This document shows positions 55,294 through 56,780 of a DNA stretch of 64,000 nucleotides, in pieces. The notes under the pieces are model-generated. The model was not told where the DNA came from. It ran no database searches and saw only the letters and a list, made by a program, of their open reading frames with translations. The stretch spans positions 78,425 through 142,424 of the forward strand of contig JAFUIN010000001.1 of NCBI GenBank assembly GCA_017468465.1, read 5' to 3'. Made by a program: the position numbers and the translations under genes. Every line of letters starts with the position of its first letter. Position 1 is the first letter of the stretch. This DNA is from Clostridia bacterium. GTDB taxonomy: Bacteria > Bacillota > Clostridia > UMGS1840.

Positions 55294-55322
55294 TTGAAAA
55301 AACAAGAGAGATATGATATAAT
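55294..55322 (+). promoter_or_regulatory. rightward promoter at the left edge of the comb element
   Basis: TTGAAA (55294-55299), 17 nt, TATAAT (55317-55322). The first hairpin of the element begins at the next base, so the element is the first thing transcribed. Confidence 0.75.
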
Positions 55323-55624
55323 GAGTTCAAGTGAAACTTGAACTCAGCGATATAAATTCCTGACGGAATTTGCGATATACCTTGCGGTGCGATATATTAC
55401 TTCGCAATGCGATATGTCCCTTCGGGACGAGATAAAGGAATTTATATCATATCGCAACCGAATGAAACGAGGTTATATCGCATTTGTGAAACAAATATAT
55501 CGCACGAGCGTGAGCGAGTATATCGCTGAAAATATTTGGCCTCTAAATCGTTCACTGATTTTATAATAAATTACCAAACAAGTTCTCATTTTTGAAGATA
55601 TAATTTGGAAAAGAGGCTTTTTTT
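55323..55624 (+). ncRNA. comb-like palindromic element, candidate structured RNA
   Basis: The left arm has GCGATAT at 55347, 55372, 55389 and 55409; the right arm has ATATCGC at 55449, 55475, 55497 and 55520. They pair in nested order. Every spacer is itself a hairpin, such as 55354-55371, 55379-55388, 55416-55428 and 55482-55496. A 10-bp hairpin (55323-55345) precedes the array. After it GCCTCT (55539) and AGAGGC (55612) close two inner hairpins before seven T, like a terminator. With the promoter upstream, this looks like a free-standing RNA of about 300 nt, or a repeat element with that shape. This 676-nt gap (55190-55865) holds no convincing gene. Confidence 0.65.
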
Positions 55625-55692
55625 CATACTGACTTGACACAATTATATAAAAAATGTCGAATGTAGTTAAAAAGGAAGGTTGCCTACGAAGC

Positions 55693-55729
55693 AACAACAT
55701 AAAAAGAAATAACTTGTATGTTGTTTTTT
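55693..55729 (+). terminator. terminator-like hairpin in the AKR leader
   Basis: AACAACATA, 15-nt loop, TATGTTGTT then a T-run, 140 nt before the aldo/keto reductase. A small hairpin GTTGC/GCAAC lies just before it. Confidence 0.6.
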
Positions 55730-55865
55730 CCAAAAAAGAATACGGTTTGGGAGTATGGCAATTTGTTTATACTTATGAAGAGGGACTGTGTTCAAGTTTA
55801 ACGTCATACATGGGGCGTATTCGTAAAAATAACCCACCCACAGATTACAAAAAAGGAGATATGAT

Positions 55866-56780
55866 ATGAAAACAATCAAAATAGGCGGCAAAATGGAAGC
55901 TTCAGCCATTTCATTGGGCTGTATGCGAATGAGTGAACTGGATGAAAGATGCGTGGATGCTGTGATGGATACCGCCATTGCAAATGGAATCAATTTTTTT
56001 GACCACGCAGATATCTATGGCGGTGGAAAGGCGGAACAGGTATTTGGAGAGTATCTGAAACGTCATCGCGGTCAAAGAGAACACATCATCATCCAGACGA
56101 AATGTGCCATTCATGACGGTCAGTTCGATTTTTCCAAGGAACATATCTTAAAATCGGTAGATGGCAGTCTGTCCCGACTGGGTGTGGATTATCTGGATGT
56201 TTTGTTGCTGCATCGTCCGGATACGCTGATGATTCCGGAGGAGGTTGCAGAAGCCTTTGATAGCTTGGAACAGTCCGGAAAGGTGAAATATTTTGGCGTT
56301 TCCAATCAGAATATGATGCAGATGGAGCTTTTGAAAACTGCAGTGAAGCAACCTTTGATGATCAATCAGTTGCAATTTTCTGTCACCGAGGCGGGAATGG
56401 TTACTTCGGGGATGAATGTAAATATGAAAAATGCCGAGTCGGTGATGCACGATGGTTCCTTCTTGGAATACAGCAGAATCAAAAACATTACCATTCAGAC
56501 TTGGTCTCCGTTCCAGCACGGCTTCTTTGGTGGAAGCTTTGTGGATAATGACAAATTTCCAAAGCTAAATCAAGTGCTTGCCGAAATTGGGGAGGCGCAC
56601 GGTCTTACGAAAACAGGAGTTGCAGCTGCCTGGATCTTACGTCATCCGGCAAATATGCAAATTGTTGCCGGCACAATGAATCCGAAGCGGTTGGAAGAAA
56701 TTTGCAAAGCAGGCGACGTGGAGCTGTCCCGTTCGGAATGGTATGAAATTTACCGTGCGGCAGGGCATACGCTTCCGTAA
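55866..56780 (+). CDS. aldo/keto reductase
   Basis: The 304-residue product has the AKR catalytic set: FFDHADIYGGGKAEQVFGEY (Asp and Tyr), IIIQTKCAIHDG (Lys) and VLLLHRPDTLM (His), with GVSNQNMMQME in the barrel and a C-terminal GTMNPKRLEEICKAGDVELS. It reduces a carbonyl with NADPH; substrate unknown. AAAAAAGGAGATATGAT precedes the ATG. A terminator-like hairpin lies in its leader. Confidence 0.94.
   Translation: MKTIKIGGKMEASAISLGCMRMSELDERCVDAVMDTAIANGINFFDHADIYGGGKAEQVFGEYLKRHRGQREHIIIQTKCAIHDGQFDFSKEHILKSVDGSLSRLGVDYLDVLLLHRPDTLMIPEEVAEAFDSLEQSGKVKYFGVSNQNMMQMELLKTAVKQPLMINQLQFSVTEAGMVTSGMNVNMKNAESVMHDGSFLEYSRIKNITIQTWSPFQHGFFGGSFVDNDKFPKLNQVLAEIGEAHGLTKTGVAAAWILRHPANMQIVAGTMNPKRLEEICKAGDVELSRSEWYEIYRAAGHTLP

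Follow-up and report, generated by a model that had tools for sequence, protein, structure and literature searches.

A nested palindromic comb beside mrp in a Clostridia bacterium is probably a gene-less copy of a small mobile element that encodes a four-helix-bundle protein

The window analysed here, a 64,000-nt stretch of a Clostridia bacterium genome, carries beside the mrp gene a comb-like nested palindrome, in which small hairpins alternate with a repeated 7-mer linker word. The comparisons below make it probable that this feature derives from a small mobile element and is a copy without the gene. The full element is about 540 bp long and consists of a comb and a single open reading frame (ORF) for a four-helix-bundle protein (4HB).

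Architecture of the comb

The left arm contains GCGATAT four times (55347, 55372, 55389 and 55409) and the right arm ATATCGC four times (55449, 55475, 55497 and 55520), in the nested order given in the original prediction, and GCGATAT otherwise occurs in the window only as single occurrences. The spacer hairpins of differing sequence between the words and the 10-bp hairpin at the left end (55323-55345) were likewise found as described, and the apex holds a fifth right word, TATATC, together with a degenerate fifth left word, GAGATA. The features, all on the + strand, are as follows.

55294..55322 (+): host promoter TTGAAA-N17-TATAAT, divergent from mrp; insertion site, outside the element (relatives G003, G002 and G004)
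55323..55345 (+): left hairpin, GAGTTCAAGT-GAA-ACTTGAACTC (from the sequence; compare L133 and L259)
55347..55526 (+): comb, with four GCGATAT, hairpins h1-h4, the apex, and four ATATCGC with hairpins h5-h7 (from the sequence and homologues)
55347..55416 (+): left linker words, GCGATATA/G, at 55347-55354, 55372-55379, 55389-55396 and 55409-55416
55355-55370, 55380-55387 and 55397-55407 (+): hairpins h1, h2 and h3, between the left linker words
55416..55428 (+): hairpin h4, GTCCCTTCGGGAC, followed by the degenerate fifth left word at 55429-55434
55437..55448 (+): apex segment, GGAATTTATATC, complement of GATATAAATTCC (55349-55360), which is the first linker plus the h1 5' strand
55448..55526 (+): right linker words, (C/T)ATATCGC, at 55448-55455, 55474-55481, 55496-55503 and 55519-55526
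55456-55474, 55482-55496 and 55503-55518 (+): hairpins h5, h6 and h7, among the right linker words
55538..55567 (+): right module, GGCCTCTAAATCGTTCACTGATTTTATAAT; in the full element L263 the same module stands behind the 4HB gene
55345..55420 (+): match to RF01706 (Gut-1), full-length and sub-threshold (34.7 bits, gathering score 50, E 2e-5)

A GCCTCT/AGAGGC stem with a T-run had been proposed to close the structure on the right but was not confirmed. Its loop would span about 65 nt, and GGCATCT stands at that spot in most other copies; the stem is therefore no common part of the combs and is peculiar to the window copy.

Between combs and downstream genes we also observed a recurrent module in which GCATCTAAAyC precedes one or two TGTCGAA words (Spo0A-box-like) and a GGAG ribosome-binding site. 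It occurs at 55538-55567 of the window, at about 1185-1235 of L106, which has no comb, and at L019, L105, L108 and L251. A 71-aa ORF (55654-55869, +) lies between the comb and the aldo/keto reductase gene, overlaps the start of the latter and gave no PADLOC match. A 12-bp direct repeat (GAGATATGATAT) is found left of the comb (55306-55317) and over the ribosome-binding site and start of the reductase gene (55856-55867); these copies, some 550 bp apart, could be due to chance or be an old target duplication.

Folding and covariation

RNA folding of the window comb gave z scores of -6.2 (+) and -7.1 (-), with none of 100 shuffled sequences folding equally well, and the pattern TGCGATAT-N6-30-TGCGATAT occurred 10 times genome-wide, while the reversed control pattern did not occur. 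The two arms had been drawn as a single long helix. The nesting is real, but a shifted register is predicted to be optimal (-66.3 kcal/mol, against -61.2 kcal/mol for the nesting as drawn); the registers are interchangeable because every linker is one and the same word.

Among 33 distinct combs, each of six hairpins matched its own partner strand better than it matched swapped strands (none of 500 shuffles in each case), and this preference also held inside the CGATAT class alone. The bases flanking the linker word covary as well, from G-C to T-A. Because the hairpins are of unequal length, MAFFT columns place the third linker out of register, and covariation was therefore scored segment by segment, with the strands swapped for comparison. 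The apex matched the first linker plus the h1 5' strand of its own comb over 6.42 nt, compared with 4.26 nt after swapping (0 of 2000 permutations), and this complementarity was seen in every comb class. Such conserved pairing of the apex indicates that two mutually exclusive folds of the comb are maintained.

Two signs of an inert repeat had been named beforehand, namely a lack of covariation and copies at many unrelated loci. Covariation proved strong, with the whole linker word and every hairpin changing together, yet copies do lie at dispersed loci. The comb is therefore structured and mobile and not an inert repeat.

Dispersal of combs

The suggestion of a palindromic repeat family was borne out, as copies were present at unrelated loci, in other bacterial families and in phages. 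The genome that contains the window (1.5 Mb) holds five copies of the GCGATAT comb; copies were found in 12 of 60 relatives, patchily and across several Clostridia families, and reached 89% identity with a copy in the genome of another family. Combs occupy sites behind tRNA genes, behind terminators, at promoters and at gene 3' ends, for example that of a RumA-like methyltransferase gene.

A search of phage and plasmid record collections returned no DNA similar to the window comb, and a search of IMG/VR returned one phage copy. Combs are carried by three related gut phages (L133, 4322-4560; L367, about 1161-1470; L416, 2560-2730). In two of these three, the comb lies in the gap between the scaffold and major capsid genes, where many relatives carry other small repeats, and this gap seems to be an insertion hot spot of these phages. 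PADLOC gave no match, which leaves a defence-system reading of the element unsupported.

Linkage of combs to a four-helix-bundle gene

The genes adjoining combs encode a four-helix-bundle protein of PF05635/TIGR02436, with 2rld as the closest solved structure; the proteins of the full elements scored 80.7 and 78.3 bits against PF05635 (cut-off 33.8). We searched the 420 nt upstream of 4HB family genes with a comb detector that requires at least eight words. Combs were detected directly upstream of 48 of 89 close 4HB genes, 0 of 13 distant PF05635 genes and 6 of 1,359 control windows, the controls being unselected DNA around mrp genes rather than matched intergenic regions. The other 41 close 4HB genes scored no comb, and some of them carry degenerate or other repeats.

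The words upstream of 4HB genes comprise GCGATAT/TCGATAT, GTGAAAT, GCTAAAT, ATGATGT, ATGATAT, CTTCAC, ATGAATT and ATTCATT. On a tree of 85 4HB proteins, which rests on a short alignment and leaves many forks unresolved, eight linker words required seven changes, the minimum possible; when all labels were included, 24 changes were required compared with 43.7 after shuffling (0 of 200 shuffles). The gene is under strong purifying selection (median dN/dS 0.07 over 76 pairs). In the GCGATAT elements that were read, the comb ends about 15-20 nt before the 4HB start codon, directly before the ribosome-binding site, and so forms the leader of the 4HB message. These results show that comb and 4HB gene constitute one unit and that each linker word belongs to one protein clade. 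In part, these clades may stem from the common descent of whole units and not from recognition; the hosts of a single linker word span many bacterial families. We found no report in the open-access literature that links PF05635 to palindromic repeats.

The genome of the window (G000) also contains two intact 4HB elements behind tRNA genes, L167 (G000:C1:21902) and L189 (G000:C9:39366), with the words ATGATGT and ATGATAT. In the same genome, a Gut-1-type 4HB gene (L244, G000:C10:4153) is interrupted by TAA.

Insertion with duplication of the target

In G130 (L259/L335), the 3' end of a flavoprotein gene carries an inserted GCGATAT comb and 4HB ORF, bounded by two copies of TTGCAGGCAAGAGTGC that form a 16-bp direct repeat and stand 558 bp apart. 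The 542-bp insert has 4HB as its sole gene, and the 4HB frame ends in host codons. The same-genus genome G235 (L336) contains the empty site, with one copy of the target and with flanks collinear on both sides (75% and 77% identity). In phage L133, a gene-less comb lies between 18-bp repeats (CCCGGCTAAGCGAGCCGC) of the end of the scaffold gene. Target duplications of 12 bp were found at L282 and at L016. Direct repeats of at least 10 bp surrounded 8 of 33 combs (3% expected), and their lengths vary (16, 18 and 55 bp). These comparisons of genome sequences, drawn from drafts and metagenome assemblies and including one empty site matched on both sides (G130 versus G235), show that the comb, with or without its gene, is mobile and inserts at new sites with 16-18 bp direct repeats. 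Among 80 loci of L133 phage relatives no exact empty site was found; the IYPG-stop end of the scaffold gene is conserved, and the intergenic DNA is too variable to align.

The left end of the insertions has a characteristic composition. The L259 insert begins with CTGCAAGAAAAC, the reverse complement of the target DNA, and at L133 the left end is GCGGCTCGC, an exact complement of the target that follows two extra bases. In both cases, this inverted target copy at the start of the insert gives rise to the left hairpin, and in copies with a defined target duplication the left hairpin thus consists of one host strand and an inverted copy of host DNA. A similar chimeric hairpin was present at insertions in RumA-like genes, which end normally in relatives without the comb. 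The inverted target copy is a distinctive clue to the mechanism.

At L288, L289, L257 and L310, the comb at the 3' end of the RumA-like methyltransferase gene replaces the last codons, and in at least L288 and L257 the stop codon is supplied by the first linker (GATATAA). For L222 (G134:C20), a 4HB element with ATTCATT-type repeats behind a tRNA-Arg gene, the flanking direct repeat (605-659 and 1145-1199) is perfect over 55 bp, far more than the 16-18 bp of other elements, and takes in the tRNA terminator; a search for a sister genome with both flanks of L222 found none.

Origin of the window copy

The -10 box of a promoter that is divergent from mrp immediately precedes the window comb. A sigma-A-type promoter (TTGAAA-17-TATAAT) had been predicted to abut the left end, and it is present there, but it is the host's and not the element's, because relatives have it without a comb: G003 and G002, of the same genus, carry the same promoter and no comb. 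In G004, a GCTAAAT comb is found at the same TATAAT; it shares the right module of the window copy and has a 12-bp direct repeat (TATAATGAATTC). Around the window copy only TATAAT is common to both sides, and its own target duplication has decayed to these six bases. Its empty site could be matched on one side only, because the right-hand gene differs between species. L025, whose mrp is 83% identical, was considered as an empty site and was unusable owing to its differing gene order. Relatives with the same mrp-side promoter carry quite different genes on the other side, and the comb is absent from them or different. The proposal that the feature is a leader of the aldo/keto reductase gene was therefore abandoned, since that gene is not common to these relatives.

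The position of the right module behind the 4HB gene in L263 indicates that the window copy is an internal deletion without the gene. Partial deletions were found as well: L278, in the genome of the window, has a comb and a 4HB gene cut after about 57 codons, followed by the right end and flanked on both sides by TACAATGA, and L332 has a comb and an internally deleted 4HB gene. The window feature is probably a gene-less, MITE-like derivative of the comb and 4HB element. Like a MITE, the window copy is short and non-coding, has terminal inverted words and derives from a larger element by internal deletion; a target duplication is clear in its relatives. The parents of MITEs encode a transposase, whereas the comb parent (542 bp) has only the four-helix-bundle ORF and no recognisable transposase. 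None of the five GCGATAT copies in its genome has an intact 4HB gene, so the window copy is probably immobile now.

Relation to the Gut-1 RNA family

The original prediction did not recognise the structure as a named RNA, which was nearly right. At the gathering threshold, Rfam placed no family at the element; the left arm is nevertheless a full-length match to Gut-1 (RF01706) that covers positions 1-77 of the 77 in the model, untruncated and with the whole model architecture present. Its score (34.7 bits) and that of the best GCGATAT copy (42.5 bits) fall below the gathering cut-off (50 bits). Matches to StyR-143 and CRISPR-DR38 scored far under the gathering scores of those families and were taken as chance. 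The Gut-1 consensus corresponds to the same arm as that of the window comb, built on GTGAAAT where the window has GCGATAT. Weinberg et al. (2010, PMC2864571) published Gut-1 as a free RNA from the human gut only and judged it to be an RNA with certainty, without a cis-regulatory role. In our search, by contrast with that description, Gut-1 matches occurred in 43 of 245 Clostridia genomes (29 with matches above the gathering score), often in many copies. The complementary arm was present at 21 of the 30 Gut-1 loci examined, and some Gut-1 loci lie upstream of 4HB genes. True Gut-1 matches are thus mostly one arm of a nested comb built on GTGAAAT, which recasts this Rfam family as an arm of a mobile-element structure.

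These data bear on the view that the window feature is expressed from the promoter next to it as a structured non-coding RNA that serves the cell, which is what has been assumed for Gut-1. The full-length Gut-1 match, the published grading of that family, the strong covariation in all hairpins, and a promoter at the left end whose -10 box is followed immediately by the left hairpin would all agree with it. However, the copies are patchy and dispersed, occur in phages and are flanked by target duplications; the promoter is the host's and exists without the comb; most of the Gut-1 loci examined possess the complementary arm; and a fold that a protein has to recognise would be expected to covary just as much. 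We therefore regard a cellular RNA as decidedly improbable.

Proposed mechanism and alternative drivers of movement

We infer that the 4HB protein drives the movement of these elements. The comb, either as RNA (the 5' leader of 4HB) or as single-stranded DNA, would be the cis-acting part; the 4HB protein would recognise its own linker word in the comb, recruit host enzymes and act in trans on gene-less copies. A 3' end at the target, as the inverted copy suggests, may snap back, be extended by about 9-15 nt and then switch to the element as template, and the window copy would have entered at the -10 box of the promoter beside mrp. An element-borne guide complementary to the target was also considered as the source of the inverted copy; this is the less economical idea, since each site would require a guide of its own although the combs are nearly identical. 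We put at even chances the wider proposal that these elements form a new class without a transposase, recombinase or reverse transcriptase of their own, in which 4HB binds the comb, with five words in each arm, and guides enzymes of host replication or repair to copy it into new sites by snap-back and template switching, and in which PF05635 proteins, including those of 23S rRNA intervening sequence (IVS) elements, serve as a mobility factor. By analogy with the homopentameric relative S23p, and as speculation, five words per arm would fit a five-fold 4HB binder.

Alternatively, a reverse transcriptase could act in trans and copy comb RNA into the target, with 4HB as an Avd-like partner. The 4HB protein shares its four-helix-bundle fold with Avd of diversity-generating retroelements, the leader of its gene contains the comb, the inverted copy of the target resembles the product of snap-back priming and template switching, and the direct repeats vary in length. 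In the full elements that were read, however, no reverse transcriptase gene stands beside the comb-linked 4HB gene, which distinguishes them from diversity-generating retroelements. No RVT_1 was detected in seven comb-bearing drafts (G000, G006, G007, G050, G130, G199 and G224), and among these G130 holds the very insertion whose empty site is in the sister genome; in drafts an enzyme may be missed, and one could also act from outside. We consider a retroelement unlikely. Weak PF05635 matches beside RVT_1 at G003:C19:19023-20505 and G004:C7:4283-5765 have the look of a diversity-generating retroelement with Avd and are unrelated to combs.

Another candidate driver is a Y1 (HUH) transposase, either RAYT or of the IS200/IS605 kind, acting on a REP/BIME-like palindrome, with 4HB as a passenger. 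In lying near gene ends and tRNA genes the palindromes are REP-like, they likewise are dispersed and outnumber a small linked protein gene, and Y1_Tnp genes were present in 15 of 18 genomes tested. They were equally common in genomes without combs, however, and absent from the comb-rich genomes G006 (98% complete) and G235; moreover, the full 542-bp element has 4HB only, and a passenger role misfits both the low dN/dS and the agreement of words with clades. The comb also differs from REP/BIME sequences in its size and form (nested, about 180 bp, versus palindromes of 20-40 bp) and in its partner, which is PF05635 and not a Y1 transposase. A Y1-driven palindrome is accordingly a very remote prospect. 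Given the absence of RVT_1 from seven comb-bearing drafts and of Y1 from two comb-rich genomes, neither enzyme looks like a universal resident partner, and movement driven by 4HB remains our preferred reading.

Comparison with IVS elements and significance

The comb elements and IVS elements are alike in being short, with structured RNA and a single PF05635-family ORF; we take the Coxiella S23p-family ORF to belong to PF05635. The Coxiella 23S rRNA IVS is a 428-nt element, termed selfish, with structured RNA, one S23p-family ORF and tandem 7-mers upstream of it (Warrier et al. 2016, PMC4990558). IVS mobility was proposed long ago but not shown, and S23p is described, by citation, as a homopentamer (PMC4990558). 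IVS elements sit in 23S rRNA, whereas comb elements lie elsewhere, form a nested comb and have target duplications at many kinds of site; no LSU match was obtained in the window or around the full elements L251 and L259. The full comb elements, like IVS elements, encode a PF05635 (S23p) protein, and the window copy has no such ORF.

We know of no established mobile element defined by a comb and a four-helix-bundle protein alone, and for this reason rate the class as new; the comb and 4HB element is apparently previously undescribed. On a cautious view, the class could be a dispersed variant of the IVS kind. The four-helix-bundle/S23 family had, to our knowledge, no known function, and is here tied to an insertion event by an empty site, a target duplication and a single gene under selection. 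The PF05635 family thereby gains a first concrete role to test, in a system of about 540 bp that is small enough for direct tests, and is linked to insertion where IVS mobility had been an open question. If the proposal is true, PF05635 proteins, including those of IVS elements, would be the mobility factor proposed decades ago. The element would also explain dispersed palindromes of gut Clostridia at tRNA genes, promoters and gene ends.

The distant PF05635 genes differ from the close ones in having no comb, and they include L207 (G222:C1), a classical IVS in which the PF05635 gene lies inside a 23S rRNA gene, with an LSU match across the locus. The complete genome G222 contains three further genes identical to that of L207, giving four PF05635 matches of equal score.
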